A DNA stretch of 28,225 nt from a virus, in the IMG/VR virus record IMGVR_UViG_3300008459_009749, positions 1 through 28,225 of that record; one strand, 5' to 3'. Positions 3,201-28,225 of this stretch are shown here, in pieces. Made by a program: the position numbers and the translations under genes. Each line of letters starts with the position of its first letter. The first letter of the stretch is position 1. The notes beneath the pieces were generated by a model. The model worked only from the letters and a program-made list of their open reading frames with translations, ran no database searches and was not told the origin of the DNA.

Positions 3201-4366
3201 CAAGAACTGTAACACCAACGGTAACTCCAACCATATCATTGACTCCGACTATTACGATAACCCCAACAGTTACTCCTTCGGTAACGTCAACTCCTGGTTC
3301 GTCAGCGACTCCAACTCCAACTGTTACTCCAACAATATCATTAACTCCGACTCGAACAGTAACCCCAACTATATCATTAACTCCAACCAATACTCAAACA
3401 CCTTCGGTTACTCCGACAATATCATTAACACCAACTAACACCCAAACCCCAACTAATACTCCTACTAAAACTGTAACACCTACAATATCTTTAACCCCAA
3501 CAAGAACTGTAACACCAACGGTAACTCCAACCATATCGTTGACCCCAACTAATACTGTAACACCAAGCAATACACCCCCACCCTCAAGAACCGCGACCCC
3601 AACAGTTACCCCAACAATATCTTTAACACCAACTAGAACGGTTACTCCAACAGTTACCCCAACTAAAACTAAAACACCAACAGTAACCCCAACTAAAACT
3701 AAAACACCAACAGTAACTCCTACAATATCATTGACCCCAACTAAAACACCAACAGTAACTCCTACTACTACCCCATCGTCAACGCCAGGATGTTTATCAT
3801 ATAGATTAACTAGAGGTGTAACATCATCATCATACACGTTTACACCATGTTGTGGTGAACCAACAACATCTCCTGTAACAGTTTCTGTGTTAAACCCAAT
3901 TAGGGATATTTGTTCATCCACATTACCTGTTAGAACAAGTGGTACTGGAACTATAACATTACTTGGTAATTGTTCGTTGTGTGATGATGCTAGTGTTACT
4001 ATTAGTGTTAGAACTTCATCTGGAGGAGGTGCGACTTCTCAATCAGGAACATTATCTTACACATTGAATGGTGGTTCTTCTGTGGTAATATCTTCATCAA
4101 TTAATTCAAACTTAGGTACGACATACGTAGGTTTTAGTAACATTCCTTGTAATTACGGTGATGTTTTAGTTTTTAGTTTTGTCCAAAACGTTGGTAATAG
4201 TAATAATTGGGGACAAGGATTCAACGGAAGTTACTCCAACTTAAATGATTGGCAATGTGGAAGTCCTAACACTTACACTTATACAGTCACCTCAACAGGT
4301 TTAAATAATCTATATTTTAATATTAGTTCTCAAAATACTGTTTGGAACTCGGTACCCCCTTGTTAA
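266..4366 (+). CDS. Giant mucin-like Thr/Pro-rich structural protein
   Basis: A 1366-residue protein arranged as beads on a string. Small Cys-containing beta-rich modules occupy roughly residues 1-80, 92-160 and 190-258, separated by short Thr/Pro linkers. Residues ~259-1172 form an almost unbroken two-residue repeat in which every second position is Thr or Ser. It contains about 26 copies of ISLTPT and many TNTQTPT, TKTPT and TVTPT blocks. A globular Cys-containing domain rich in Ser, Gly and Asn forms the last ~190 residues. No signal peptide or membrane segment is visible, as expected for a virion protein assembled in the cytoplasm. The most likely role is an extended fibre or surface protein. 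The enzymes just downstream suggest that the Thr residues may be glycosylated (inference). The start is the first ATG after the upstream stop; no Shine-Dalgarno sequence is seen. Confidence 0.88.
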   Translation: MIQSIEITGATGIGPYDIEVCDITLSLCIPIASGVNIPPTYTFNLPPELSGSTQVIVRLTDTNGCPCLEVCPCPIIEPTPTVTPTVTPTMTVNCNCIEFDNVDLIEHSISFVDCYGNNIDTIVPPETSLSFCGKDPSVDDPIVIVTIGDFCVDGECPPPPPTPTNTLTPTNTLTPTVTPTKTLVPLVGYFQDCCDPSNIIIISTIPFTYYPLSGVYYVESTGFNGCVTSISPTYSPNAYIHINATSFSSCPDCELIYPCPTPTPTVTSTNTVTPTVTPTITETPTNTPTQTATPTITPTVTPTVTSTQTNTPTSTLTSTPTVTITPTVTNTNTPTVTNTKTPTKTPTVTPTVTRTQTVTPSPTVTKTPSLTPSVTNTPTNTITQTVTNTPTNTITNTPTVTPGISPTTTPTKTVTPTKTPTKTPTPTRTQTKTPTPTKTPTPTRTQTKTPTVTPTNTKTPTVTPTNTKTPTKTPTPTRTQTKTPTVTPTNTKTPTKTPTVTPTNTKTPTNTVTPTITRSNTPTVTNTQTNTPTITPTISLTPTITPTITETPTVTPTISLTPTITSTVTNTVTPTITRSNTPTVTQTPTVTPTITETPTNTPTVTKTNTQTPTATPSQTPEITSTPTVTPTPTNTITPTVTPTVTPTLTNTPTETPAQTSTPTKTITPTKTNTPTVTPTVTPTETPTQTPTPTVTSTNTPTNTITVTPTISLTPTNTETPTNTPTQTVTPTISLTPTNTETPTNTPTSTVTPTISLTPTNTQTPTNTQTPTNTQTPSVTPTISLTPTNTQTPTVTPTISLTPTNTQTPTNTQTPSVTPTISLTPTNTPTPTISLTPTKTVTPTISLTPTNTPTKTVTPTISLTPTRTVTPTVTPTISLTPTNTQTPTNTQTPSVTPTISLTPTQTPTPTVTPTISLTPTISLTPTNTQTPTNTPTKTVTPTISLTPTNTQTPTNTPTISLTPTNTPTKTVTPTISLTPTRTVTPTVTPTISLTPTITITPTVTPSVTSTPGSSATPTPTVTPTISLTPTRTVTPTISLTPTNTQTPSVTPTISLTPTNTQTPTNTPTKTVTPTISLTPTRTVTPTVTPTISLTPTNTVTPSNTPPPSRTATPTVTPTISLTPTRTVTPTVTPTKTKTPTVTPTKTKTPTVTPTISLTPTKTPTVTPTTTPSSTPGCLSYRLTRGVTSSSYTFTPCCGEPTTSPVTVSVLNPIRDICSSTLPVRTSGTGTITLLGNCSLCDDASVTISVRTSSGGGATSQSGTLSYTLNGGSSVVISSSINSNLGTTYVGFSNIPCNYGDVLVFSFVQNVGNSNNWGQGFNGSYSNLNDWQCGSPNTYTYTVTSTGLNNLYFNISSQNTVWNSVPPC
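3161..3237 (+). repeat. 77-base exact direct repeat, copy 1
   Basis: These 77 bases are identical to 3461-3537. The copies are exactly 300 bases apart, which is 100 codons in frame. This points to a recent in-frame duplication or conversion within the repeat domain. Confidence 0.85.
3461..3537 (+). repeat. 77-base exact direct repeat, copy 2
   Basis: Second copy of the block at 3161-3237. Identity ends at base 3538, where A in the first copy becomes G in the second. Confidence 0.85.
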
Positions 4367-4424
4367 TTATTAATATCTTATTTATTTATTGAGGATTCTT
4401 TATATTTTTTTCATAAAAAACTTT

Positions 4425-5672
4425 ATGAAAATATTTGTTCAAATTGCTTCTTACAGAGACCCCGAATTAATAAAAACAATTAATGACATGATATTAAACG
4501 CCAAAAGACCTAAAAATTTGGTTATTGGTATTTGTAGACAATATCATCCTGAAGACGGATTTGATAGTCTTGAGGAATTCAATGGAGATAAAAGGATAAA
4601 ATCTATCGATGTCTTATATTCCGAATCAAAAGGAGTTTGTTGGGCTCGAAACCAAGTACAACAACTTTACGGTGGTGAGGAATATACGTTACAGATTGAT
4701 TCTCATATGAGATTTGAAAAAGATTGGGATGACACATTAATAAAAATGGTTAAACAATTACAAAAGAAAGGATTTAAAAAACCCTTACTAACAGGTTACG
4801 TTTCTTCGTTTAATCCCGAAAATGACCCTCAAGAAAGAATACAAGAACCATGGAGAATGGTTTTTGATAGATTTATTCCTGAAGGTGCCGTGTTCTTCCT
4901 TCCTGAAACAATACCAGGATGGAAAGATTTAAAAGAACCAATACCTGCAAGATTTTATTCGGCACATTTTGCCTTTACAGTAGGTCAATTTAGTGAGGAA
5001 GTCCAACATGACCCCGAGTTCTATTTCCATGGAGAAGAAATTTCAATTGCTGCAAGAGCGTATACTCATGGTTATGATTTATTCCATCCTCATAGAGTTG
5101 TTATTTGGCATGAGTATACTAGAAAGGGTAGAACTAAACAGTGGGATGATGATAAAGATTGGGTGAATAAAAACAATTTAGCACATTCTAAAAATAGACA
5201 ACTATTTGGGATGGATGGGGAAGAAGTTATTTATGACTTTGGTAAATATGGATTTGGGACCGAAAGAACCCTAAGAGAGTATGAAATCTATTCAGGACTT
5301 TTATTTTCAAGGAGAGCGGTTCAACAATATACATTAGATAAAAATTACCCACCTAACCCCGCGATATATGAAACTGAAGAAGAATGGTATAATAGTTTTG
5401 CATCAATTTTTAAACATTGTATTGATGTTGGGTATAGTCAAGTTCCTGAGAATGATTACGAATTTTGGGTTGTTGCATTTCATGATGAAAATGATGAAAC
5501 AATTTATCGTAAGGATGTCGATATTAATGAAATTAATATGATGAGAAATGACCCTGATGGTTATTGTAAAGTTTGGAGAGAATTCCAAACAAGTAAAAAA
5601 CCTTCATATTGGGTTGTATGGCCATATTCATCATCTAAAGGTTGGTGTGAAAGATTAACAGGTAATTTATAA
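4425..5672 (+). CDS. GT60-type GlcNAc glycosyltransferase (Skp1/mucin GlcNAc-transferase family, PF11397-like)
   Basis: A 415-residue cytoplasmic glycosyltransferase. It opens with MKIFVQIASYRDPEL, the typical start of the GlcNAc family. The metal-binding motif QIDSHMRF is at residues 90-97, the conserved FHGEE is at about 201-205, and it is followed by AARAYTHGYD and the IWHEYTR block at 227-233. Known relatives use UDP-GlcNAc to put the first sugar on a protein: hydroxyproline of Dictyostelium Skp1, or Thr in trypanosome mucins. The gene lies 58 bases after the Thr-repeat protein and heads an operon of sugar-modifying enzymes, so the repeat protein is an attractive substrate (inference). 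A TTG codon at 4389 would extend the frame by 12 residues, but the family motif starts at the ATG used here. The exact sugar and acceptor cannot be read from sequence. Confidence 0.9.
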   Translation: MKIFVQIASYRDPELIKTINDMILNAKRPKNLVIGICRQYHPEDGFDSLEEFNGDKRIKSIDVLYSESKGVCWARNQVQQLYGGEEYTLQIDSHMRFEKDWDDTLIKMVKQLQKKGFKKPLLTGYVSSFNPENDPQERIQEPWRMVFDRFIPEGAVFFLPETIPGWKDLKEPIPARFYSAHFAFTVGQFSEEVQHDPEFYFHGEEISIAARAYTHGYDLFHPHRVVIWHEYTRKGRTKQWDDDKDWVNKNNLAHSKNRQLFGMDGEEVIYDFGKYGFGTERTLREYEIYSGLLFSRRAVQQYTLDKNYPPNPAIYETEEEWYNSFASIFKHCIDVGYSQVPENDYEFWVVAFHDENDETIYRKDVDINEINMMRNDPDGYCKVWREFQTSKKPSYWVVWPYSSSKGWCERLTGNL

Positions 5673-5675
5673 TAT

Positions 5676-7253
5676 ATGGCGAATATTTCATTTTATGGTT
5701 CACACAATTCTTCGGTTGTGGTCGAAGACAATGGTAAAATTATAACCGTCATTGAGGTTGAAAGATTCCTTAATGTTAAAAATGCGGGATATGGTCAATA
5801 TCTAACCTCTAACACTAGATTCTTTTTAATACAAGAAATCTTAAAGTATATTAAAACCGAATTTGGGTTTTCAGAATTTGAGAATTGTTATTACTCAAAT
5901 ACTGATACAATAGAAGGACCTAAAAAAGTTGATTACGAGAAATACATACCTGCAAAAAATTACGTTAATGTTTTACATCATTTGTCTCATGCTGCTTGTG
6001 GTTTATATCAAACCGATTATAAAAATGCTTTAATAGTTTCATTTGATGGTGGTGGGAGTGATGGATTCTTTAATATCTATATTTCTAAAAATAGAAACTC
6101 TATCGAGTTGTTAGATAAATATAATATTGATTTAGGTTTTGCTTATATGTCATTTGGTGATTATTTAGATGATATACGACAAGAACCTGCATTAAATATA
6201 GGTAATTTAGTGTATTCAGGTAAGATAATGGGGTTATGTTCATATGGTAATTTAAACAATGATTGGTTACCTTACTTTGAGGATTACTACAGGTCAAAAC
6301 CTGATGGTTTAAATTATTTAGACTTACTTAAAATTTTAGGTGAGAAGACGGGATTAGTATTTGACAGGAATAATCGTATTAATGGTCAATCCTCTTGGGA
6401 TGTTGCTAAAACTTCTCAAATCGCTTTTGAGAATGTCTTTATGGAGATTGTTTCACCGTTTTTAGAAAAACACCCAAAACTACCATTAATACTTGTTGGT
6501 GGTTGTGCTCTAAACATTTTACTAAATACAAAATTGTATAATGAATTAGACAGAGATGTGTTTATACCACCCAACCCAAACGATTGCGGAATTGCGGTTG
6601 GTATGATGTTACTACATATGAAACCTAAAAAATCAATTGATTTAACTTATTCTGGTATACCAATTTTAGATAAAAACACTTTAATGATGATTTCTGAAAA
6701 TCATTATAATACATCACCATTAGAAACGGGTCAAGTTGTAAAAGATTTAACGGATGGTAAAATTATCGGAGTTGTTAGAGGTAATTCAGAACATGGACCA
6801 AGAGCATTAGGAAACCGTAGTATTATATGTGACCCGTCACATACGAATATGAAAGATATATTGAACTCTAAAGTTAAAAATAGAGAATGGTATAGACCTT
6901 TTGCACCCGTTTGTAGATTAGAGGATATTGATAAGTATTTTAATTTTAGTGGTGAAAGTAGATGGATGAGTTTTTGTCCTGAAGTCAAAGAAGAATGGAG
7001 GGGAAAATTAACATCAATAACCCATGTTGATGGTACTGCAAGAGTTCAAACAGTTACGAAAGAACAAAATGAATGGTTATACAATTTATTGACCGAGTTT
7101 GAAAAACTCTCGGGTATTGGGGTTTTATTAAATACATCATTTAACGTAAACGGTAAACCTATACTATCCACATATAAAGACGCGATACATGTTTTTAAAA
7201 ACACCCAAATGGATAGATTAATATTAGAAGATTATTATATTATTAATAAATGA
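5676..7253 (+). CDS. Carbamoyltransferase (NodU/CmcH/TobZ family)
   Basis: A 525-residue member of the carbamoyltransferase family, which moves a carbamoyl group from carbamoyl phosphate through carbamoyl-AMP onto a hydroxyl of a sugar or antibiotic. The N-terminal Kae1-like domain shows GSHNSS at 8-13, HHLSHAACG at 101-109 (two metal-ligand His in an H-x3-H pattern) and FDGGGSDG at 123-130. NPNDCGIAVG lies further along. The C-terminal domain has EHGPRALGNRS from residue 372, the most diagnostic motif of the family, and LLNTSFNVNGKPI near the end. The start is 3 bases after the previous stop and the gene overlaps the next one by 4 bases, so it is part of a translationally coupled operon with glycosyltransferases. 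The likely substrate is the glycan made by its neighbours (inference). Confidence 0.94.
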   Translation: MANISFYGSHNSSVVVEDNGKIITVIEVERFLNVKNAGYGQYLTSNTRFFLIQEILKYIKTEFGFSEFENCYYSNTDTIEGPKKVDYEKYIPAKNYVNVLHHLSHAACGLYQTDYKNALIVSFDGGGSDGFFNIYISKNRNSIELLDKYNIDLGFAYMSFGDYLDDIRQEPALNIGNLVYSGKIMGLCSYGNLNNDWLPYFEDYYRSKPDGLNYLDLLKILGEKTGLVFDRNNRINGQSSWDVAKTSQIAFENVFMEIVSPFLEKHPKLPLILVGGCALNILLNTKLYNELDRDVFIPPNPNDCGIAVGMMLLHMKPKKSIDLTYSGIPILDKNTLMMISENHYNTSPLETGQVVKDLTDGKIIGVVRGNSEHGPRALGNRSIICDPSHTNMKDILNSKVKNREWYRPFAPVCRLEDIDKYFNFSGESRWMSFCPEVKEEWRGKLTSITHVDGTARVQTVTKEQNEWLYNLLTEFEKLSGIGVLLNTSFNVNGKPILSTYKDAIHVFKNTQMDRLILEDYYIINK

Positions 7254-8137
7254 AAAAAACAAAATTAGTTACCGCTTTTTACACACAAATACATGGTCAT
7301 CCTTTTTATGGTCACTTTGAAGTTTCTAGACACGAAAGGTACCTACACTCAATGAGAGTGTTAAATAACATGGGTCTTGAGATTGTTTGTTTTTGTAATG
7401 AAAATCAATACGATTTATTAAAATCTCATATAAATCAATATGATTTGTGTAATATTAATTTAAAAATTTCAAATCTATCAGATTTACCATTTTCAAAAAA
7501 GATGAAAGAAATAAAAGATAAAACAAATAGTTTTAAATTTTATCATGAAGTTGACTGGAATAAAATTTACTTATTAGATAAAGAGTATGACGAAACGTAT
7601 GACTATCTTTATTGGATAGATGTTGGGTTATCTCACCATGGGATTTTTCCAAACAAGTATAACCCTAATTCTAAATTAGCGACGGGTATGTCTCACGATT
7701 ATAACACTTATTCTTTTACCGATTTATTTACCGATAAATTATTTGTAGGGATTAATAATTTTCTCGGGGATAAGTTAATTAGTATTGAGAATGAATTAAA
7801 ATTTCATAACGTTTATGAACTTAATTCAATATTAGAGGGTGAATATGACTATAAGGGTTTAACCGTTGGGGGTATTTTAGGAGGCCATATCAGTAAAGTT
7901 AAATGGTTTATTAATAAGTTTAACGAATTAGGGGGGAAATCCCTAAATAAAGAAGTAATTCTAAACCATGAAGCAATAATCTCTTTTATGAAAGAATATA
8001 AGAAAGAGTATTTTAATACATTCCTTTTCCAAACTTGGTATCATGAAGATACAACAGGGTTACCTGATTACATTATTAAAGACCAAATACATTTTAGTCA
8101 TTTTTTTGACATGATTTACAAAAATTATATTTTATGA
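7250..8137 (+). CDS. HtrL/YibB-like glycosyltransferase
   Basis: A 295-residue protein with the pattern of GT-A-type transferases: KLVTAFYTQ near the start, a hydrophobic strand ending in LYWIDVGLSHHGIF near the middle that corresponds to the WIDAG motif of HtrL/WlaTC proteins, then a Gly-rich GGILGGH and a late WYHED. The neighbouring 788-residue protein has a clearer HtrL module with WIDAG at 366-370, which supports the assignment. The gene overlaps both neighbours by 4 bases (ATGA), so it is coupled to the carbamoyltransferase and to the trimodular enzyme. It probably adds a sugar to the same glycan. Donor and linkage are unknown, and the family call is moderate because only part of the motif set is visible. 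Confidence 0.7.
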   Translation: MKKTKLVTAFYTQIHGHPFYGHFEVSRHERYLHSMRVLNNMGLEIVCFCNENQYDLLKSHINQYDLCNINLKISNLSDLPFSKKMKEIKDKTNSFKFYHEVDWNKIYLLDKEYDETYDYLYWIDVGLSHHGIFPNKYNPNSKLATGMSHDYNTYSFTDLFTDKLFVGINNFLGDKLISIENELKFHNVYELNSILEGEYDYKGLTVGGILGGHISKVKWFINKFNELGGKSLNKEVILNHEAIISFMKEYKKEYFNTFLFQTWYHEDTTGLPDYIIKDQIHFSHFFDMIYKNYIL

Positions 8138-10500
8138 TAACAGATTTATTCGATAAGGGAGTACATCATATAGGTAAAACTATGAAAGATGTGGTAACGA
8201 TTAATATAGGTGCAATGGACGGAGTTTTATTTGATGAATTATACGGATACTCCAATATGTATGATTTTACGGGTCTATACGTAGAACCTGTCCCATACCT
8301 ATTTGAACGTTTAAAAAACAATTTAGGACCTAAACATATTTACGAAAATTCGGTTATTTCGGACCATGATGGATATGTTGATATGATTACAATTGATAGA
8401 GACGCTATTGATAATAAATTAGTTCATGAATGTTTTTATGGAATGAGTGCGGTTTATCCGCCAAAAAATGGTTTGGGTAGTGAGTTTGATAAACCGACAG
8501 TTGAAAAATACGGGAGAATGATAACAGTCCCTTGTATCAGTTTGTCCACATTATTTAATAAACACAACATAAACAAGTTTGAAATTTTCAAAGTGGATGC
8601 CGAAGGGTACGATTTTAAAATAATTAATCAGTTAGATTTAAGTAAATTCAAACCAAAAGTTATTAGATGTGAATGGATTAATTTATCTGACGATGAAAAA
8701 GAAACATTAACTAATCGATTAACCGAATTTGGTTATGTTTATGAAGTTTTACATGGTGATATTACCGCAATTAGTGATGATTTATATAAGTCATTAGAAG
8801 AACAGTTAGGGATTAAAAAAGTTAATAAAGTTACCATTGTGACAGGATTGTGGGATATTGGTAGAGGTAATTTAAGTGACGGATGGTCTAGAACCTACAA
8901 CCAATATATCGAAAGGTTTGAGAAAATATTATCCATAAAAGAAAATATGATAATCTATGGCGACCATGAATTGGAAACTATTGTGTTTAAGCATAGAACC
9001 CAAGAAAATACCCAATTTATTAGGAGGGATACCAATTGGTTTAAATACAATGAATTCTACAATTTAATACAAGACATACGAACAAATCCTGAATGGTCTA
9101 ATCAAGCACCTTGGTTGGGAGATTCCACACAAGCGAAATTAGAGATGTACAACCCATTAGTCATGTCAAAAATGTTTTTATTAAACGACGCTAGAATAAT
9201 GGATAAATTTAATTCGGAATATCTTTTTTGGATTGATGCTGGTATAACTAATACTGTTCATTCGGGATATTTTACACATGATAATGTTTTTGATAAGATA
9301 CCAAATATCTGTAACAAATTTATGTTTTTAACTTTTCCATATAATGCAGTTAATGAGATTCATGGTTTTAATTACAAAAAATTGTGTGAATATTCAGAAA
9401 GTGAAAATGTTAATAAAGTAGGTCGTGGCGGCTTCTTTGGTGGACCTAAAGAAACAATTTCAGAGACAAATAATATCTACTATCAATTATTAATAGATAC
9501 CTTAACCAAAGGTTATATGGGTACTGAGGAAAGTATTTTCACCATTATGTTATACAAATACCCAAATTTATTTGATTATTGTGAATTAGAGTCTAATGGT
9601 TTCATTTCTAAATTTTTTGAGGATTTAAAAAATGATTTGTGTGTTGTAAAGTCAGAAAAAATTAAATACATTATTAATTCTAATGTTGATTTATCTGACG
9701 TTGGGTTATATGTGATTGGGTTTAACAGTCCTAATCAATTTAAAACATTAATAAAATCTATGTTATCTTATGATGAAGATTTTATTAATAAACCAAAAAA
9801 ATACTTATTAGACAATTCTTCCGACTTATCAACAACATCAGAATATTTAAACATTTGCAAAGAATATAATTTTGAACATATAAAACAAGATAACTTAGGA
9901 ATCTGTGGTGGGAGACAGTGGATTGCGGAACACTTTGAGAAATCTAATCTGAAATATATGTTATTTTTTGAGGATGACATGTTCTTCTACCCAAATAAAG
10001 GTGAGGTTTGTAGAAATGGATTTAATAGATTTGTGGAAGATTTATATTCAAAATCTTTAAAAATTATAAAAAACGAAAATTTAGATTTCCTTAAATTAAA
10101 TTTTACTGAGTTTTATGGTGATAATTCTATACAATGGAGTTGGTACAACGTACCTCAAACTGTTAGAGATGAGGTATGGCCAAACAATAAAAAATTACCA
10201 GTTCAAGGATTAGACCCTAACGCACCAAAAACAAAGTTTGATAATATAAAATCATTAGATGGAATTCCATACTCATTAGGTGAGGTCTATTATTGTAACT
10301 GGCCTCAGATAGTTTCTAAAGAAGGTAATAAAAAGATGTTTTTAACAACTAAATGGGCCAGACCTTTTGAACAGACATGGATGAGTCATATATATCAAGA
10401 AACGATTAAAGGTAATATTAAATCAGGTTTATTATTATTGACACCCACAGAACATGATAGATTCGACCATTATGATGGGTCGTTAAGAAAAGAAAGTTAA
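8134..10500 (+). CDS. Trimodular FkbM methyltransferase - HtrL-like glycosyltransferase - GT2-like glycosyltransferase
   Basis: A 788-residue fusion of three enzymes. Residues ~1-225 are an FkbM-type SAM-dependent methyltransferase: the SAM-binding INIGAMDG is at 23-30, VEPVP follows the second strand, and KVDAEGYD is at 153-160. Residues ~230-510 are an HtrL/WlaTC-like glycosyltransferase that begins with VTIVTGLWDIGRG and has WIDAG at 366-370. Residues ~525-788 resemble a GT-A transferase with a metal-binding EDD at 613-615 (FFEDDMFFY). FkbM enzymes usually O-methylate sugars. The gene is the last of the operon and overlaps the previous one by 4 bases. Together the modules could extend and cap an O-glycan, with the methyl group on a sugar hydroxyl (inference). 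The third module is the least certain, since only the EDD motif and its setting are clear. Confidence 0.88.
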   Translation: MITDLFDKGVHHIGKTMKDVVTINIGAMDGVLFDELYGYSNMYDFTGLYVEPVPYLFERLKNNLGPKHIYENSVISDHDGYVDMITIDRDAIDNKLVHECFYGMSAVYPPKNGLGSEFDKPTVEKYGRMITVPCISLSTLFNKHNINKFEIFKVDAEGYDFKIINQLDLSKFKPKVIRCEWINLSDDEKETLTNRLTEFGYVYEVLHGDITAISDDLYKSLEEQLGIKKVNKVTIVTGLWDIGRGNLSDGWSRTYNQYIERFEKILSIKENMIIYGDHELETIVFKHRTQENTQFIRRDTNWFKYNEFYNLIQDIRTNPEWSNQAPWLGDSTQAKLEMYNPLVMSKMFLLNDARIMDKFNSEYLFWIDAGITNTVHSGYFTHDNVFDKIPNICNKFMFLTFPYNAVNEIHGFNYKKLCEYSESENVNKVGRGGFFGGPKETISETNNIYYQLLIDTLTKGYMGTEESIFTIMLYKYPNLFDYCELESNGFISKFFEDLKNDLCVVKSEKIKYIINSNVDLSDVGLYVIGFNSPNQFKTLIKSMLSYDEDFINKPKKYLLDNSSDLSTTSEYLNICKEYNFEHIKQDNLGICGGRQWIAEHFEKSNLKYMLFFEDDMFFYPNKGEVCRNGFNRFVEDLYSKSLKIIKNENLDFLKLNFTEFYGDNSIQWSWYNVPQTVRDEVWPNNKKLPVQGLDPNAPKTKFDNIKSLDGIPYSLGEVYYCNWPQIVSKEGNKKMFLTTKWARPFEQTWMSHIYQETIKGNIKSGLLLLTPTEHDRFDHYDGSLRKES

Positions 10501-12676: not shown

Positions 12677-14485
12677 ATGGAATTTTTCATTAAAAAAAAT
12701 GCGACTTTACCACTTTTAAAATTACAAGTTGTAAAAGATGGTAGAAGTGACTACAATAACTTTATGAAAAGTTTAGAAGAGTCTGCCATATTCTTTTCAA
12801 TGGTCGATTCCGATAGCGGGATTCCAAAAATAACCTCAAGACCTGCTGGTTTTGTTGAGAAGACTTTTATAGACCCAAACGCGGAACCTGAATATTATAT
12901 TTATTACCAATTTCAAAATAGAGACACTAATAAAGTAGGCCGATACGAAGGACAGTTTATGTTAAGAACTGATGACGGTGTTTTAATCCTACCAATAAGA
13001 GAGAAATTATTTATTAATGTACAAGAATCTTTTATTGCTGATGACTTACCGTATGAAACTTGTTATACATCTGAGTTTCCTTGTTGTTTACCAAATGGTA
13101 TAACAACAACAACCACAACATGTAATTGCCCAACGTGTCCCCCATGTCCATCACCGACGCCAACCCCTGAACCAGTTACGACGACAACTACTTATTCCCC
13201 AATTACTACAACAACTACAACAAATATTCCGTTGTCTGTTGTTTTAGACGTTGATATTAACCCTGGTTCGATAGTTATCGATTATAATTTAACTGCTAAT
13301 CAATATGTTGATGAAGAGGTTTATTTTGGGTTTACTCATTTTTTAGGTACTTATACAGGTTCACCGATAACGATAGTTACAGGTGTAACAATATCAATAG
13401 GTGATATTTCAGGTAATACCCAAGTTACAATTAATGATGATTTTAATAATTTATCAAGAGAAGATGGTTTTGGGGATTTCACATTTATACCTCCATTTTT
13501 TGAGTGGGTTATCTACGAGAATTACCCAACATCAACCCCTACTCCTACCCCAACATCAACCCCTACCCCAACTCCTACTGAAACTTTAACACCAACTCCA
13601 ACTCCTACTGAAACTTTAACACCAACACCTACCCCGACATACACTCCGACAGAGACACCAACACCTACCCCGACCCCTTGTGTCACTGGTGAAACTTTCA
13701 CAACAATAACAAATACTAATTGGATATATCCACAATCGGACATCGATACCGCATTATCGTTAACAACAATACCATATACTGCAATCAATAATACCTTGTA
13801 TTTTAACACTATCACTGATATGGGAACCGTGTACGATGAGGTGTTTGCTCAAACCGCTATATCACAACCATTAGGGAATCAAGGTTATTCTTTAGGGGTT
13901 GGTACTGAATTGCAAAATTATTATACTTTATTATATTGGAAATTATCTCCAACCGACGAACTTATTGTGACTTGGAACCTAACCCAACAATTAACTGACC
14001 AAAGTACTTTACCTACACCAGGAGAATCCCCAAATGGGACTATTGGTTATTTAACAAGATATGAGAATTGGCCGATTAACCAAAGACCTCAGTTTTATGA
14101 CCCTGTGTTATCAGTAGAAGGTCCGATTATCTGTGTAACACCTACCCCTACACCTACACAAACCCCAACACCTTCACTTTGTGGACCTAACCCATACCAA
14201 ATATTTTTAACATTCTCAACTAACACAACAGGGGCGTTCACATCAGATTTAAATTTAGCGTGTTCAGCATTAAGTTGTTTAAGTTCATCGTCATGTTTTG
14301 GGGCGGGAGCAATTTCAGGGTGGTTTAATAGTACATCTCCACAAGTTGGGGATTCTATTTACTCATCGTGCTCCTCAGTCATTCCTTCATCGGTTAATGG
14401 TTTTTATATTGTTAATGTAAACTCGGTTTATACATTATACGAATTCTCAAACGGGGTTATTGTATCAACTCCTACATGTCCTTAA
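12677..14485 (+). CDS. Multidomain virion protein with Thr/Pro linkers
   Basis: A 602-residue protein in four globular parts joined by linkers. Residues 1-140 resemble the Ig-like N-terminal modules that dock fibre or baseplate proteins, with patterns such as DGRSDY, FFSMVDSDSGIPKI and EGQFMLRTDDG. Linker 1 (141-186) is Cys/Pro/Thr-rich with runs of six Thr and the cluster CNCPTCPPCP. A beta domain spans 187-283. Linker 2 (284-334) is TPTPT/ETLTP repeats. A domain at 335-476 is followed by a short linker 3 and a Cys/Ser-rich end (492-602). The layout matches the giant protein at 266-4366, so both are probably appendage proteins of the same virion. The Thr linkers could be glycosylated by the adjacent operon (inference). 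The start follows the palindromic leader; no Shine-Dalgarno sequence is seen. Confidence 0.83.
   Translation: MEFFIKKNATLPLLKLQVVKDGRSDYNNFMKSLEESAIFFSMVDSDSGIPKITSRPAGFVEKTFIDPNAEPEYYIYYQFQNRDTNKVGRYEGQFMLRTDDGVLILPIREKLFINVQESFIADDLPYETCYTSEFPCCLPNGITTTTTTCNCPTCPPCPSPTPTPEPVTTTTTYSPITTTTTTNIPLSVVLDVDINPGSIVIDYNLTANQYVDEEVYFGFTHFLGTYTGSPITIVTGVTISIGDISGNTQVTINDDFNNLSREDGFGDFTFIPPFFEWVIYENYPTSTPTPTPTSTPTPTPTETLTPTPTPTETLTPTPTPTYTPTETPTPTPTPCVTGETFTTITNTNWIYPQSDIDTALSLTTIPYTAINNTLYFNTITDMGTVYDEVFAQTAISQPLGNQGYSLGVGTELQNYYTLLYWKLSPTDELIVTWNLTQQLTDQSTLPTPGESPNGTIGYLTRYENWPINQRPQFYDPVLSVEGPIICVTPTPTPTQTPTPSLCGPNPYQIFLTFSTNTTGAFTSDLNLACSALSCLSSSSCFGAGAISGWFNSTSPQVGDSIYSSCSSVIPSSVNGFYIVNVNSVYTLYEFSNGVIVSTPTCP
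13526..13678 (+). repeat. Thr/Pro linker repeat inside the multidomain protein
   Basis: In-frame low-complexity coding repeats (TPTPTSTPTPTPTETL type), including a near-exact tandem copy of a unit encoding PTPTPTETLT. It is of the same class as the repeats in the first two genes of the window. Confidence 0.85.
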
Positions 14486-18887: not shown

Positions 18888-20426
18888 TCATTTCAGTTGA
18901 TAAATTAACGATTCTTTAGGAAAGGTATAAGACCCATTAACTATTTTAGTATTTGAATTATCAAAAATGGATACTCCTCTACCTTTTCTTGCAAAAATTA
19001 ACCAATCAGTTGTATATTTTTTCACCTGTCCCGTATTCAGTACCGTCATAATACCATTCTCCTCAACGATGTTACCGTATGGTTTTATTTGACATGTTTT
19101 AGTTTCCCCATCAATCTTGACTTTACAATCAATCCCTTGAATCATATCCTCTTTATTACCTAACTCCCCGATTTGAATAACGTTTTCATCCCCAAATTCT
19201 TTATTAAGTACTCCAACCGCATAGTCTTCAGTTTCACCACCCATGGTATGGGTAGACCCTAAGGTTAACATCAGATTTTTAAAAGTTTCAGAATTAGTAT
19301 TAAAAATTCTTTCTTTATATTTGTCAATTATCGATATTAATTTCTTAGTATTACTTATCTGGGTAAACGGAGGTAATCCAACCATTTTAAGTTCGGGTTG
19401 ATTGGACGCTCTTAACACTTTATTAACATCTCTTAATAATATACAAAAACAACTATAATTAGTGTTTAGTTTATTAATTACTGACCTACCACCACTTTCT
19501 AAATCATAGATACCTGACATGGACCCATCAGAATATTTATCCTTATCATAATAATTTTTAGGAAAAACATTTTTTAAAATATCATCAATACCGTATCTAA
19601 AAATATTTTTAACTTTTGGGTTAACATTAAAAATAAAACGTATTGCTTCATTCATTTCCCTACTACATTTTTCACCAACACTTTCTGTTAGAATTTTTTT
19701 AACCATATTACTTTCATTTAATTTTGTTTTATCTTTTAATGAAAATAATTTATCAACAAATTCCCAATTAACAACGTCCCAAAAATTTTTAATATACTCA
19801 TCTCTTTTATTTCTATATTTCAGATAATAGGCATGTTCCCATAAATCTAAACCTAATATAGGATAACCACCATCTTTAACAATATTCATTAGTGGATTAT
19901 CTTGGTTTGGGGTTGTTGTTATCTTTAAATTATTTTTTTTAGTTAAGACTAACCACACCCAACCTGAACCAAAACTATCTTTTGCAGATTCCTCAAATTT
20001 AGATTTGAAATTCTTATAACTACCAAAATCTTTATTTAATTGTTTTAATAATTTATTGGAAGGTTTTTGTTTTTTTGGAGATAACATCTTCCAAAATAAA
20101 GCGTGGTTAAATGCACCACCTGCGTTATTCCTAATTGTTTTATTAAATTTACTAATAGATTTAACAATTTCCTCAAGTTCTAAATCACCACCTTTTTGTT
20201 TTGATAACGCTTTATTGAGTTTCTCAACATATCCTTTATAATGTTTGTTATAGTGATATGTCATTGTTTCGGCATCAATGAATTGTTTTAAGGCCGAGTA
20301 AGTGTAAGGTAATTTTTCAATACCTATTTTTTTCATTTCAAGAAGAAATAGAGATTCATTTTCTTTTTCTTCATGTAAGATTAACGATTCATTTATTAGG
20401 TTAATCTTATCTTGTATTTTTTTCAT
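18888..20426 (-). CDS. Mn/Fe superoxide dismutase fused to a PD-(D/E)XK-like module
   Basis: A 512-residue two-part protein. Residues ~36-229 are a full Fe/Mn superoxide dismutase, which converts superoxide to oxygen and hydrogen peroxide. The four metal ligands are present: H58 (YHYNKH), H108 (FNHALFW), D194 and H198 (LDLWEHAYY). The active-site Gln sits in NQDNPLM (Q175), as in Mn enzymes, while the Fe-type Gln position is Gly. Residues ~241-512 are a separate module with GGETEDYAVGVL, then GIDCKVKIDG (D433) and CQIKP (Q446, K448), the spacing of a PD-(D/E)XK nuclease fold with a QxK variant. A related module ends the protein at 22803-24290. An internal MVKKILTES at the junction looks like the former start of the second gene. 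Stand-alone superoxide dismutases are ~200 residues. Nuclease activity is inferred, not shown. Confidence 0.9.
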   Translation of the reverse strand: MKKIQDKINLINESLILHEEKENESLFLLEMKKIGIEKLPYTYSALKQFIDAETMTYHYNKHYKGYVEKLNKALSKQKGGDLELEEIVKSISKFNKTIRNNAGGAFNHALFWKMLSPKKQKPSNKLLKQLNKDFGSYKNFKSKFEESAKDSFGSGWVWLVLTKKNNLKITTTPNQDNPLMNIVKDGGYPILGLDLWEHAYYLKYRNKRDEYIKNFWDVVNWEFVDKLFSLKDKTKLNESNMVKKILTESVGEKCSREMNEAIRFIFNVNPKVKNIFRYGIDDILKNVFPKNYYDKDKYSDGSMSGIYDLESGGRSVINKLNTNYSCFCILLRDVNKVLRASNQPELKMVGLPPFTQISNTKKLISIIDKYKERIFNTNSETFKNLMLTLGSTHTMGGETEDYAVGVLNKEFGDENVIQIGELGNKEDMIQGIDCKVKIDGETKTCQIKPYGNIVEENGIMTVLNTGQVKKYTTDWLIFARKGRGVSIFDNSNTKIVNGSYTFPKESLIYQLK

Positions 20427-22290: not shown

Positions 22291-22803
22291 ATGAATAATA
22301 AAGTACCAATCACTAGAGTCGGTAAATTTTTTGGTTCCGACGATTATAACCTTGACTTATCAATAGGGGAAGAATGGTTATATGGGGATATGAACTTCAC
22401 ATTAGTTCTTTATCGAATTGATAGGGTTAAAACTAAAACTGATGATGTTTACGGTGAAACGGTAAAAGACGGAATTAAGTTTTTACCTCCTGTCGAATTT
22501 AAGGGATACGTTCAAATAATGGCTCCTGAAAACAAAACGATTGGAACATCAAAAGTTAATCAATTTGAGCCAGGTAATATAAAAGTTTCTGTTTATATTA
22601 GACATTTAGAAGAATTAGGTATTGATATTAGTTATGGTGACTATATTGGTTATTATGAAACAGAAGATAAAGTGAGATATTATGTGGTTAATAATGATGG
22701 TAGAGTTGTTTCAGATAATAAACATAATTATGCGGGATATAAACCATATTATAGAACAATTGGTGGTTCTGCAGTAACTGAAAATGAATTTAGAGGGTTG
22801 TGA
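22291..22803 (+). CDS. T4 gp14-like neck protein
   Basis: A 170-residue protein resembling the core of T4 gp14 in order and pattern: an early YRIDRV stretch in place of YYVPRE, then DVYGETV in place of FGED, a central strand (VEFKGYVQIM) followed by VKVSVYIRHLEELGIDISYGDYIGYYE that matches the GDLIYFP segment, and RYYVVNNDG. gp14 works with gp13 to complete the neck on filled heads. The protein is shorter than T4 gp14 (256) and lacks its C-terminal part. The stop overlaps the next start by one base (TGATG), so translation is coupled to the zinc-ribbon protein. The similarity is at pattern level, supported by the gp15-like and sheath genes that follow. Confidence 0.68.
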   Translation: MNNKVPITRVGKFFGSDDYNLDLSIGEEWLYGDMNFTLVLYRIDRVKTKTDDVYGETVKDGIKFLPPVEFKGYVQIMAPENKTIGTSKVNQFEPGNIKVSVYIRHLEELGIDISYGDYIGYYETEDKVRYYVVNNDGRVVSDNKHNYAGYKPYYRTIGGSAVTENEFRGL

Positions 22804-24290
22804 TGAAAATTATATTAACTGAAAACCAAATAGTTTCTTTATTAGAAAAAATAAATTCTAATACAGTTACCTGTGATAAATGTGGATGGTCGTGGGATTT
22901 ATCTGATGGGGGTGATGACCCTTATATTTGTCATAAATGTGGTCATAATAATTCTGAAGAGGATTATATTGGTAAAAAAGTTATGGTGTATTATAATTTA
23001 CACAAAGAAACATTTTCCGTAACATATAAATCTAAAGTTGTTTTACACGCCGATTATGTAAAGTTAGGTAATGTTGAATTTAGAGTTAGACAAGGGGGTA
23101 AAGAAAAGGTTAGGGATGAAAAACGAAAAAACGTCCACGCATTTGTAATTGGTAAATTATTAGATTTTTGTGAATATCCTTGTGATAAAATACCTGAAGA
23201 GTCAACTTCTAAAGTTGTTACATACAATCCATACAAATATGACAGTTTTGTATATAAAGATACTGAAGAACCTGTATATAATGCAAAAGAGGTTGATATG
23301 ATTAACCGTAAGAATAAATTATTTGTTATATCTGAAATTGTGTCCTCATTAAATGAAAATGAAGAGGTTAACGAGGAATTAAATAAATTCACATATACAA
23401 CAATAGGGTTATTTCAAAAAGGTACGACTAAAAGATATTATTTTAACGACCCTAAACCTGTGGAAGGTAGAGACATACCTAACGGTATGATTGGTATTAA
23501 CGGAGCTTTGGGTAATTTTTTATTTAATAAAGATGACATTGGGTATGATTCAAAAAATAATAAACTTTTTGTTAATAAAGATGTTTTAGATTCTAAATAC
23601 AACGGTATTAAAAGTAGCAGTGATGCTGAGAAGATAGGGATTACTCCAACTAAAATTAGAGAAGCTCTGAATAAAGCATTTCCTGAAAATTGGCATGATG
23701 AAGACTCGATATTTACATCAGGGTTAAGAGATATCTATTCTATAGGTGAAAAAACCAATGATAGTGAAGAGACTTGGTCAATTATGAATTATTTCGACAC
23801 CAAACCAGAGATACACGCCTTACTTTATTTGAAGTATATGGATGAAGAATCTGACAAAGATATTGTTGACTGGATGGTTGACCTTTTTAGAAATGATAAA
23901 GGATTCACTCAACTACTCGTTGATAGACAATGGAATTCAATAGAAAATGGTTTAAGACTTGAGAGAGATTCAGTCTCAAACTTTTTAGATAAGATGGGTT
24001 CAGGAAATGTTGTCTATTACCCTCATGGTTCTAAAATGGATAGATGGTCAGGAGTCGATGTTACTATCGATGGAGTTAATTATCAAATTAAACCTTTAAA
24101 ATCTTATGAAGAAAATGATGGAGTGTTTACAGTAAACACTTATGGTATGAGAGATTATACGTCAAAAACTAAATTAAATAAAATAGCATTTGCAAATTCT
24201 AAAGAAGTTTTAGTTTTCGATAATAAAAATTATAATGTAATTAGTAGAAATAAAGTGGTGTTTAAACAGACCCCAAATATCATAAATTAA
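22803..24290 (+). CDS. Zinc-ribbon protein with a C-terminal PD-(D/E)XK-like module
   Basis: A 495-residue protein. It starts with MKIILTENQIVSLLEKI, followed by a zinc ribbon with C24/C27 and C43/C46 (CDKCGWSW and CHKCGHN). Residues ~57-120 form a basic domain ending in RKNVHAFVIG that I recognise only as a recurrent unnamed domain. The C-terminal third has LRLERDSVSNFL, then GVDVTIDG (D419) and YQIKP (Q428, K430). This is the same E...D...QxK pattern as in the dismutase fusion at 18888-20426, and the stretches before it also align (FPENWHDED against FPKNYYDKD, then G-x-x-DIY against G-IYDL). The frame could begin with GTG at 22800, but the ATG overlapping the previous stop fits better and has AGAGGG upstream. 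The function is unknown; a DNA-processing role near the neck genes is an inference. Confidence 0.82.
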   Translation: MKIILTENQIVSLLEKINSNTVTCDKCGWSWDLSDGGDDPYICHKCGHNNSEEDYIGKKVMVYYNLHKETFSVTYKSKVVLHADYVKLGNVEFRVRQGGKEKVRDEKRKNVHAFVIGKLLDFCEYPCDKIPEESTSKVVTYNPYKYDSFVYKDTEEPVYNAKEVDMINRKNKLFVISEIVSSLNENEEVNEELNKFTYTTIGLFQKGTTKRYYFNDPKPVEGRDIPNGMIGINGALGNFLFNKDDIGYDSKNNKLFVNKDVLDSKYNGIKSSSDAEKIGITPTKIREALNKAFPENWHDEDSIFTSGLRDIYSIGEKTNDSEETWSIMNYFDTKPEIHALLYLKYMDEESDKDIVDWMVDLFRNDKGFTQLLVDRQWNSIENGLRLERDSVSNFLDKMGSGNVVYYPHGSKMDRWSGVDVTIDGVNYQIKPLKSYEENDGVFTVNTYGMRDYTSKTKLNKIAFANSKEVLVFDNKNYNVISRNKVVFKQTPNIIN

Positions 24291-25617: not shown

Positions 25618-28225
25618 ATGGCATCTAACAACAAAGTATTCGTATCTCCTGGGGTGTACACATCAGAGGTGGATTTAAGTTTTGTGGCTCAAAGTGTTGG
25701 GGTTACAACTTTAGGGATTGTTGGTGAGACTTTAAAAGGTCCTGCTTTCGAACCTATTTTTATTAGAAACTTCGATGAGTTTACAACATATTTTGGGGGA
25801 ACTTCACCTGAAAAATTCATAAACACACAAATACCTAAATATGAAGGTGCGTATATCGCAAAATCATATTTACAACAATCTAATCAGTTATTCGTAACTA
25901 GAGTTTTGGGTTTGTCAGGTTATGACGCTGGTCCGTCATGGTCAATTACTACTAAAGCAAACGTGGACCCAAACACTATTGATTTTTATTGTACTGACCC
26001 AGTAATAACAAATTGTTTACCTGAATGTAATGAATATCTTACTATTGATTATGAGATTGACTTTACAGGTTGTACAAATGACGTTAGTTCAATATCGTTT
26101 ATAACTCCGTCTCAAATTCCTGATGAAATTGCTGCAAAAATGAATTTGTCTTATGAGAAATTTAATGGGTCAACATCTACTTTATATCAAGATATGACAA
26201 ATCAAATTTTTGATATATTAAATGATAACTCATTAGAATTAACTTCTATTAATTATTATGGGGCAATCTCAGGAGAAACTTACGACATATTATCAACTAT
26301 ATACACCGCAGAAACAAACGTTTTTGGTGTTGAGAATGTTAACGCATCGTCAATTGATTTCACCGCTTCGGTTAACGACCCTTGGTATTATGCAACATTT
26401 GATAACATTGGAAACGCAGTTTATAGTGGATTTTCATATTGGAGTGTTGTAACTAATTTAGAATTAATTCCTGTTACTACAACTACAACATTAGTACCAC
26501 CAACTACAACAACTACTACAACAAATCCTTGTGTTACACCAACACCTACATCAACTACAACAACTACAACCGCAGCTCCTGTTAATTGTTATACAGGTAC
26601 ACTTATCGGTAGAGTTTACATCTTCTCAGGTACGGCATACACCGATTATGACGACTTAGTAATTGCTACATTACGTTCAAGAGGTTTAGCAACATATGGT
26701 ACAGATGATGGAGCGGTATATGAAGTATCAGGTTTAACTGATGTTGAGATGGTTTGTGGAAATGAGTATTCTGCAGTTACTAAAAACCCTTACTCAACTT
26801 TCGCTTTAAATGTAACAGATAAAGATAATAATAAATTTTTCTTTGAGACATCGTTCTCAAATTCAGATAGTAAGTATATTACCAAAGTATTTGGTACTTC
26901 TAACTTCGCAAAACCTAAAGATGTCGTTCCTCTATTTGTTGAGGAGAGATTCCAATCGTTATTAAATTACGCGTGGAGAAAAGGTTACATTAGAGGTTTA
27001 AATTGTGAATTAACTGCGTTACCAAACGCAAGACAAGGTAGTGACCCTACTTCAATCGCTTGGTACTTAGAAAAATATCAATCACCTGTGTCTCCTTGGG
27101 TTGTTTCAGAATTAAGAGGTAATAAAGTTTATAACTTATTTAAAGTGACAACAATTGCGGACGGAGATTCGGCAAACATCGAAGTTAAAATCTCTATTGC
27201 GAATATCTCATTTGGTAACGGTACTTTTGATGTGTTAGTTAGAGATTTCTTTGACTCTGATTCCGCACCTACAGTACTTGAGAAATTTACAAATTGTTCT
27301 ATGGACCCAAGTCAGAATAATTTCATCGCTAAGAAGATAGGAACAGTTGATGGTGAGTACGCTTTAAATTCAAAATTCATCATGGTCGAAATTAATGAGG
27401 ATGCTCCTGTAGACGCATTACCTTGTGGATTCCAAGGATACTCGTTTAGAGAATATTCGGGAGTTAGACCACCATTCCCAATTTATAAAACTAAATACGA
27501 TTTCCCAGGTGAAGTAGTTTATAACCCACCGTTTGGTTTATCATCAGGGGCTGATGACATCGTAAGAAGTGCTGGTGACAATGTTCGTAGAACTTATTTA
27601 GGTATTTCAGATACTGTTGGGTTTGATGTTGATTTTTATGGTTACAAAGGTAAACAATTACCATTAGATATTTGTACAGACGTTAGTGGTGAAGATTGGT
27701 TCTATAAAACAAGAGGTTTCCACATGGATGTAAACGCTTCGGCAATAACAATTAGTAACGGATTTGTTACTAGTGGTACACCAGCATTCTACGTAGGTTC
27801 AGCACCGTTTACGACTGACCCTGAAGATTCTTCTAACCCTTATTATAGATTATTTGCACGTAAATTTAGTTTCTTATGTTCAGGTGGTTTTGATGGATGG
27901 GACATTTATAGAGACTACAGAACTAACGGAGATAGATTTGTTTTAGGTCAATCAGGTTATAGAAAAGGGGCTTGTCCTTCATTTAAATACCCTACCGCAA
28001 CAGGATGGGGAGCGTTTAAACAAATTACTGTTGGTGATAACACTCAGGATTGGGCAAATACTGACTATTACGCATACTTGTTAGGTCAAAAAACATTTGC
28101 AAACCCTGAAGCGGTTAACATAAATGTTTTCGTAACACCTGGTATTGATTATGTTAATAACTCTAACTTAGTTGAGGATTCTATAGATATGGTTGAAAAT
28201 GATAGAGCGGATTCAATCTACATTT
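25618..28225 (+). CDS. 18: Tail sheath protein, T4 gp18-like (3' partial)
   Basis: The contractile tail sheath subunit. 869 codons are visible and the frame is open at the window end. The start (FVSPGVYTSEVDLSF, then GVTTLGIVGETLKGPAFEP and IRNFDEFTTYFGG) is the hallmark of gp18-type sheaths. Later parts include RLFARKFSFLCSGGFDGWDIYRD split over codons ~745-770 and QKTFANPEAVNINVFVTPGID near the end, matching the conserved C-terminal sheath core. The sheath contracts to drive the tube through the host envelope. The protein is already longer than T4 gp18 (659). Part of the excess is a Thr/Pro/Cys-rich segment at about 285-321 with runs of five to seven Thr. The start follows a long A/T leader with a late promoter candidate. 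Confidence 0.95.
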   Translation, partial: MASNNKVFVSPGVYTSEVDLSFVAQSVGVTTLGIVGETLKGPAFEPIFIRNFDEFTTYFGGTSPEKFINTQIPKYEGAYIAKSYLQQSNQLFVTRVLGLSGYDAGPSWSITTKANVDPNTIDFYCTDPVITNCLPECNEYLTIDYEIDFTGCTNDVSSISFITPSQIPDEIAAKMNLSYEKFNGSTSTLYQDMTNQIFDILNDNSLELTSINYYGAISGETYDILSTIYTAETNVFGVENVNASSIDFTASVNDPWYYATFDNIGNAVYSGFSYWSVVTNLELIPVTTTTTLVPPTTTTTTTNPCVTPTPTSTTTTTTAAPVNCYTGTLIGRVYIFSGTAYTDYDDLVIATLRSRGLATYGTDDGAVYEVSGLTDVEMVCGNEYSAVTKNPYSTFALNVTDKDNNKFFFETSFSNSDSKYITKVFGTSNFAKPKDVVPLFVEERFQSLLNYAWRKGYIRGLNCELTALPNARQGSDPTSIAWYLEKYQSPVSPWVVSELRGNKVYNLFKVTTIADGDSANIEVKISIANISFGNGTFDVLVRDFFDSDSAPTVLEKFTNCSMDPSQNNFIAKKIGTVDGEYALNSKFIMVEINEDAPVDALPCGFQGYSFREYSGVRPPFPIYKTKYDFPGEVVYNPPFGLSSGADDIVRSAGDNVRRTYLGISDTVGFDVDFYGYKGKQLPLDICTDVSGEDWFYKTRGFHMDVNASAITISNGFVTSGTPAFYVGSAPFTTDPEDSSNPYYRLFARKFSFLCSGGFDGWDIYRDYRTNGDRFVLGQSGYRKGACPSFKYPTATGWGAFKQITVGDNTQDWANTDYYAYLLGQKTFANPEAVNINVFVTPGIDYVNNSNLVEDSIDMVENDRADSIYI
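26470..26580 (+). other. Thr-rich linker insertion inside the tail sheath
   Basis: Codons ~285-321 of the sheath encode runs of 5, 7 and 6 Thr with Pro, Ser and one Cys, unlike the rest of the protein. It resembles the linkers of the mucin-like and multidomain proteins and is probably exposed on the outer surface of the tail. Confidence 0.8.

Follow-up and report, generated by a model that had tools for sequence, protein, structure and literature searches.

Why should the sheath of a contractile phage tail carry a segment rich in threonine and proline, and might such a segment be there to receive sugars? The question is raised by an open reading frame (ORF) lying at the end of the stretch of viral DNA that is analyzed here, consisting of 28,225 nucleotides (positions 1 to 28,225 of IMG/VR record IMGVR_UViG_3300008459_009749) and referred to as 'the window'. 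Few cases of glycosylated phage virion proteins have been documented, and the means by which phages select their acceptor sites are for the most part an open matter. A search of the literature yielded nothing that we recognized as concerning Thr/Pro tracts in tail sheaths, and a paper on sheath evolution (PMC9230969), in those portions of its text that were available, is silent on threonine, proline, low complexity, disorder, and linkers.

The sheath gene and its Thr/Pro-rich segment

The features that are relevant to an initial consideration of this segment are as follows.

25618 to beyond 28225, plus strand: tail sheath ORF (gp18 type), 869 residues up to the window's end, where the ORF is cut
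26473-26589, plus strand: Thr/Pro-rich segment VTTTTTLVPPTTTTTTTNPCVTPTPTSTTTTTTAAPVNC, residues 286-324, beginning with the Val that precedes the first run and ending with the closing Cys
26476-26490, plus strand: Thr run of 5
26503-26523, plus strand: Thr run of 7
26554-26571, plus strand: Thr run of 6

Homologues of the ORF extend about 240 residues past its cut end, and the window's own, truncated copy gave no match in either Pfam or PHROG. A full-length homologue, L005, which is 89% identical to the window's sheath, displays both of the Pfam domains by which a gp18-type sheath is here recognized, i.e., Phage_sheath_1 (7.9e-9) and Phage_sheath_1C (1.3e-9). A profile of the sheath family, as compared with the PDB, in addition finds T4 gp18 chains (E ~2e-34, over profile positions 824-1108). 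The ORF, that is, as judged from homology, is a contractile tail sheath of the gp18 type.

A preliminary description of the window had reported a Thr-rich insertion at 26470-26580, with runs of five to seven Thr. That insertion is indeed found, with runs of five, seven, and then six Thr, and with the segment as delimited above being slightly wider. Among 20,000 shuffles of the protein that preserve its composition (10.4% Thr), 174 had one run of at least five Thr and none had three such runs. The runs themselves are encoded by a mixture of ACA and ACT plus one ACC, i.e., not by a pure triplet repeat. Furthermore, with 101 Thr-run sequences reduced to 54 representatives, the codons of Thr-Thr pairs differ with a frequency of 0.544 within the segment versus 0.543 elsewhere in the gene, from which it follows that the runs should be of roughly the same age as the remainder of the gene. 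Shuffles, mixed codons, and codon divergence taken together thus indicate runs that are kept at the level of protein rather than being products of fresh slippage, with chance and recent slippage rejected, on codons and shuffles, as poor accounts of their origin.

Position of the segment on the sheath subunit

Where the segment is found on the subunit may be considered in terms of three further features.

25921-26652, plus strand: extra sheath domain, about residues 102-345, positioned like domain I of T4 gp18 (N-terminal alignment along with the L005 model)
26419-26469, plus strand: first strand of a hairpin, residues 268-284 (L005 model, with the same numbering in this stretch)
26587-26637, plus strand: second strand of the hairpin, residues 324-340 (L005 model)

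Two AlphaFold2 models were generated, the first from 37 sequences and the second, of L005, from 58. The core is poor and the extra domain good in the first of these; the second has a mean pLDDT of 68.6 and a pTM of 0.62. Both models have the same topology, with long strands (268-283/284 and 324-340) bordering the Thr segment, and the segment as read from those strands is, in the models, the tip of a long beta-hairpin belonging to the extra domain. Residues 291-318 in the second model are found at a pLDDT below 50, and most 10-residue blocks of the extra domain outside of the Thr segment are at 77-94. Residues 286-324 otherwise have the makings of a mucin-type tract, i.e., one that is predicted to be disordered and that is rich in Thr, Ser, and Pro.

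The gp18 core is partly weak even in the better model, with pLDDT falling below 50 over most of residues 1-101 and over 908-1010, and exposure of the tip therefore rests on homology of position. In this regard, the extra domain follows, in the N-terminal sequence alignment, the very strand behind which T4 gp18 has its domain I. Residues 486-760 of the second model, furthermore, can be matched to the next sheath domain of phiCD508 (Z 7.6, 3.0 Å over 109 residues). Foldseek with the second model returned nothing at E 0.001 or better and a second aligner gave several sheaths, with a fold search that instead used the first model giving mostly non-sheath matches.

In phage T4, domain I of gp18 protrudes outward, without inter-subunit contacts (PMC3004832), and in a survey of 112 sheaths the extra domains are described, in the portions of that source available, as lying away from the tube (PMC9230969). 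It is from this protrusion in T4 and from this survey that outward exposure may be extended to the tip of the window's sheath. The preliminary description had called for mapping the insertion on a predicted structure as a check on its surface exposure, and the result is in agreement with that expectation, that is, a tip that is disordered, that belongs to an extra domain, and that, by position as well as by model, probably points outward in the assembled sheath.

Variation of the tip across the clade

Sheaths were extracted from 158 loci, including from two phage records, and 124 distinct ones were aligned. One of these, L158, is a sister-clade sheath that lacks the tract and which was set aside, so that tips are counted over 123 distinct clade sheaths; these are related sequences, and the counts therefore are not independent. 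A Thr run or Thr/Pro tract is present in 114 of the 123, consisting of 101 with a run of at least four Thr and 13 with a Thr/Pro tract that lacks such a run. The tip is occupied by an unrelated insert in four and is bare in five. All Thr/Pro-type tips are 39-47 residues in length, with some being largely Pro (PPPPPPP in L105 and L115). The unrelated insert (L116, L126, L153, and L155) spans 119-130 residues from segment start to closing Cys. With three of these proteins tested and no Pfam match to the insert found, the idea that it is an Ig domain was dropped, and it is for this reason described here simply as folded-looking.

With a tree that was built by a fast method from 92 core sequences, i.e., after removal of the extra domain, and that is weak at 20 of its 89 inner branches, nine changes are needed to account for the four tip types, five for the Thr/Pro class, and two for the insert class. 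Bare tips occupy basal positions in the clade (L157, L152, and L156) and are found once within it (L148 and L151). Runs of Thr per se are thus not a conserved feature. They instead interchange with PTPTP tracts as well as with the unrelated insert.

What is conserved includes cysteines.

26530-26532, plus strand: Cys305, of the NPC motif, which is C in 118 of 124 distinct sheaths
26014-26028, plus strand: Cys133 and Cys137, which are C in 117 of 124 each

The six sheaths that lack Cys305 are the five bare tips plus L158. Cys133 and Cys137 display the same pattern, bar one extra absence in a truncated row, and are missing from all bare tips. As these three cysteines persist in the presence of the unrelated insert, it is occupancy of the tip, not Thr, that they accompany. 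The association is looser for Cys152 and Cys324, which two bare-tip sheaths retain. Within the segment itself, the NPC/DPC motif and the closing Cys are conserved. Cysteines 133, 137, and 305, which are near the base of the loop, probably pin the tip, perhaps in combination with 152 and 324.

The candidate enzyme and its neighborhood

If the segment is modified, then what might modify it? A candidate is found toward the other end of the window, next to a protein that is itself a candidate substrate.

4389-5672, plus strand: PF11397-family glycosyltransferase (Pfam), candidate modifier; the ORF starts at TTG, with its first ATG at 4425
266-4366, plus strand: Thr-Pro-repeat protein of 1366 residues with about 150 TPT, ending 22 bases before the glycosyltransferase ORF
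12677-14485, plus strand: second window protein with Thr runs (6, 5, and 6) along with Thr-Pro repeats

The ORF at 4389-5672 matches PF11397, 'Glycosyltransferase (GlcNAc)', with an E of 1.6e-72, and this we take to be the same family as CAZy GT60. A sequence-based search found no solved structure for the enzyme. The enzyme was seen in 24 of 50 clade records, and in 23 of the 24 contigs that extend 20.6 kb or more upstream of the sheath, with distances to the sheath of 7.6-24 kb. It thus is a core gene inside of the clade and, as such, is uninformative on the sheath segment. Indeed, the enzyme is present along with bare sheath tips (L156 as well as L148, the latter with just 16.5 kb upstream) and along with run-free tips (L108, L125, L130, and L141). 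The sheath segment does not track the enzyme within the clade, that is, and the notion that the two are gained and lost together there is rejected on these same combinations.

Proteins that are rich in Thr-Pro are another matter. A Thr-Pro-rich ORF is found upstream, on the same strand, at all 60 of the related enzyme loci that have at least 4 kb upstream. The Thr-Pro-repeat protein at 266-4366 is the likelier main substrate of the candidate enzyme, ahead of the sheath tip.

Positions 4389-10500 of the window contain a series of glycan-type genes, these being the PF11397 transferase, a NodU-like carbamoyltransferase, an unmatched ORF, and an FkbM methyltransferase-HtrL/YibB fusion. Phage XacN1 has a transferase and then a carbamoyltransferase in the same order as the window. 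That pairing is not a general one, with a carbamoyltransferase found no more than 3 kb downstream of the enzyme in only three of 78 clade loci.

Enzyme and Thr-Pro repeats between phage groups

Sheaths of a sister clade are about 41-44% identical to those of the window's clade and lack the Thr/Pro tip. Sister-clade counts are from 28 of 63 loci; 50 clade loci were used for the enzyme search, with 29 of those used for TPTxTPT and Thr runs, and selection throughout, including for the comparison of contigs below, favored mainly length of contig. The PF11397 enzyme was found in none of the 28 sister-clade records (3.16 Mb in total), with the same family search matching in clade records, in TPTPTPT-bearing contigs, and in the XacN1 control. 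TPTxTPT similarly is present in zero of 28 sister-clade records versus 23 of 29 contigs of the window's clade. Runs of six Thr are present in five of 28 versus 26 of 29, and the clade thus has no monopoly on Thr runs as such.

Among 50,697 named phage records, and at an E of 1e-5, the enzyme was matched only in Xanthomonas phage XacN1 and in Stenotrophomonas phages RAS14 and CM1, at 45-48% identity to the window's. These phages possess, respectively, 51, 22, and 22 TPTxTPT sites. No such sites were found in the five RaK2-like phages RaK2, K64-1, PBECO4, GAP32, and CBB (345-378 kb), which gave no enzyme match in the same search of named records, nor in T4, Mel-JY01, and LR756508. As RAS14 and CM1 look like near-copies, the named phages supply one further contrast rather than three.

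With contigs of at least 40 kb, PF11397 was found in ten of 35 that bear TPTPTPT versus none of 29 that bear APAPAPA (Fisher p 0.0013), with these sets representing 35 of 80 and 29 of 80 contigs, plus XacN1 as a positive control. The association is weaker if only contigs of less than 75 kb are considered (three of 22 versus zero of 26, p 0.09), and it is weakened as well by kinship, seven of the ten enzymes being 60-76% identical to the window's. One of the ten contigs, L459, had entered via the enzyme search (as L385). Thr-Pro-rich proteins do track the enzyme between clades and groups, i.e., there is a genome-level co-occurrence of enzyme with Thr-Pro repeats in two separate phage groups. 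The preliminary description had taken the enzyme at 4425 to be a relative of the GlcNAc-transferase acting on trypanosome mucins and had linked it with the sheath. The assignment to a GlcNAc-transferase family holds, and the enzyme does keep company with Thr-Pro-rich proteins, but a specific tie to the sheath segment does not emerge.

What the tip may be for

The segment is best viewed as a mucin-like surface patch, the likeliest use of which would be as an O-glycosylation site of the phage's own PF11397 (GT60-like) transferase, an interpretation to which we would give about an even chance of being correct. The enzyme would act on virion proteins, glycosylating the Thr residues of their Thr/Pro-rich tracts, with Thr-Pro-repeat proteins serving as main substrates. 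The sheath tip would have joined this set of substrates later, that is, the clade would have acquired its tract following its acquisition of the enzyme, since L156, a bare-tip phage near the base of the clade, already has the enzyme. As the extra domain corresponds in position to T4 domain I, each sheath subunit should hold the segment away from the tail. Selection would be keeping the tip Thr/Pro-rich rather than keeping its exact sequence. Glycosylated tips on every subunit (138 being the sheath copy number for T4; PMC3004832) would coat the tail and leave the sliding core untouched, and a tail so coated could resist proteases or non-productive sticking. Counting against glycosylation is that PPPPPPP tips offer few acceptor sites.

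The main rival to glycosylation is that the tip is a plain, unmodified spacer, with Thr and Pro supplying a stiff, extended, soluble tip that counters aggregation or that tolerates inserted domains, no sugar being involved. The free exchange of tip types fits a spacer well: Thr runs swap with PTPTP and PPPPPPP five or more times on the tree, the unrelated insert takes over the tip at least twice, the enzyme is found without the sheath segment, and other proteins of the clade again display Thr runs, Thr-Pro repeats, and SG(T/S) repeats, much as though these were interchangeable linkers. A spacer does not account, however, for the joint presence or joint absence, in two phage groups, of the PF11397 enzyme and Thr-Pro repeats, and we consider it to be a possibility that is real but somewhat doubtful.

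The segment or its replacements could instead be for binding, i.e., attaching retracted fibers, making contact with the baseplate, or recognizing a cell-surface glycan. Domain I of T4 gp18 binds the baseplate as well as retracted long tail fibers (PMC3004832), and a folded-looking insert replaces the tract in four of 123 sheaths. A low-complexity sequence that drifts freely between Thr and Pro, however, would make for a poor site of specific ligand binding, and bare tips occur, which together render a binding role improbable. Still less probable, indeed very unlikely, is that the segment is a functionless product of slippage that drifts neutrally within a tolerant loop. The segment is missing from some phages, as neutrality would allow, but its codons are mixed and its synonymous divergence is that of the rest of the gene. 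Nor is neutrality easily reconciled with conservation, in Thr/Pro-type tips, of the NPC/DPC motif, the closing Cys, and a length of 39-47 residues, or with close strains, among which no wild variation in length was seen.

Returning to glycosylation, a broader proposal can be made, tentatively and at somewhat less than even chances. This is that some large myophages possess their own mucin-type O-glycosylation system, consisting of a GT60-like GlcNAc-transferase and Thr-Pro-repeat virion proteins that are gained and lost together, and that here this system has spread onto the sheath, with glycosylated tips ringing every subunit layer. If so, then a dense coat of sugar is borne by a machine whose contraction requires its parts to slide over one another. 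The question is a testable one, given a candidate enzyme, its candidate substrates, and sheaths that naturally range over Thr runs, Thr-Pro tracts, unrelated inserts, and bare tips.

Comparison with known systems

The sheath of T4 is similar to the window's in that the C-terminal domains are homologous (as noted, to E ~2e-34) and an extra domain follows the same N-terminal strand. It differs in that domain I of T4 gp18 consists of residues 98-188 (PMC3004832) and is, as aligned, without a Thr/Pro tract, whereas the extra region of the window's sheath is of about 240 residues and has the tract. XacN1, along with RAS14 and CM1, shares with the window phage a related enzyme and Thr-Pro repeats, with those of XacN1 including proteins of its neck/tail region (ORF350, 369, 370, and 372). 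XacN1 virions reportedly contain glycoproteins, though without these being named in the text available. The XacN1 sheath (ORF367), by contrast, lacks a Thr/Pro tract although the genome encodes the enzyme.

GT60 enzymes are polypeptide alpha-GlcNAc-transferases of Dictyostelium and Trypanosoma cruzi that add GlcNAc onto mucin-type Ser/Thr-rich domains, as described in the available portions of PMC8724618 and PMC9472816. The mucins of T. cruzi, like the candidate acceptors of the window, are Thr-rich (PMC9472816, in its available portions), and they are served by a transferase of what we take to be the same family. The difference is that theirs is a eukaryotic Golgi system. Among phages, virions of mycobacteriophages are reported to be glycosylated on capsid and tail tube, at C-termini (Freeman et al. 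2023, as cited in the available portion of PMC12619734). The likeness is in having sugars on phage structural proteins, which for the window phage are candidates, and the difference is in location, i.e., C-termini versus the Thr/Pro segment of a contractile sheath. What are called 'moraphages' are large and aquatic, have predicted hosts that are mostly Bacteroidota, and possess four putative glycosyltransferases in their core set, as per the available text of PMC12619734; they may be the same group as the window's clade or a neighbor. The only match of the sheath profile to a genome collection was to L158, on a contig filed under a Bacteroidota MAG.

Other proteins

Long SG(T/S)-repeat proteins are encoded by the relatives L211 (record G004) and L207 (record G013), at up to 2770 residues in G004. 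These repeats apparently are another low-complexity substitute for Thr-Pro repeats. In the window itself, an ORF of 512 residues at 18888-20426 on the minus strand begins with an iron/manganese superoxide dismutase (Sod_Fe_N 2.5e-23, Sod_Fe_C 1.6e-40), which extends to residue 226 and is fused to residues that have no Pfam match. The stretch at 22800-24290 includes a domain belonging to the gp82 family of Mycobacterium phage L5 (2.6e-31), which is preceded by a short stretch with four Cys.
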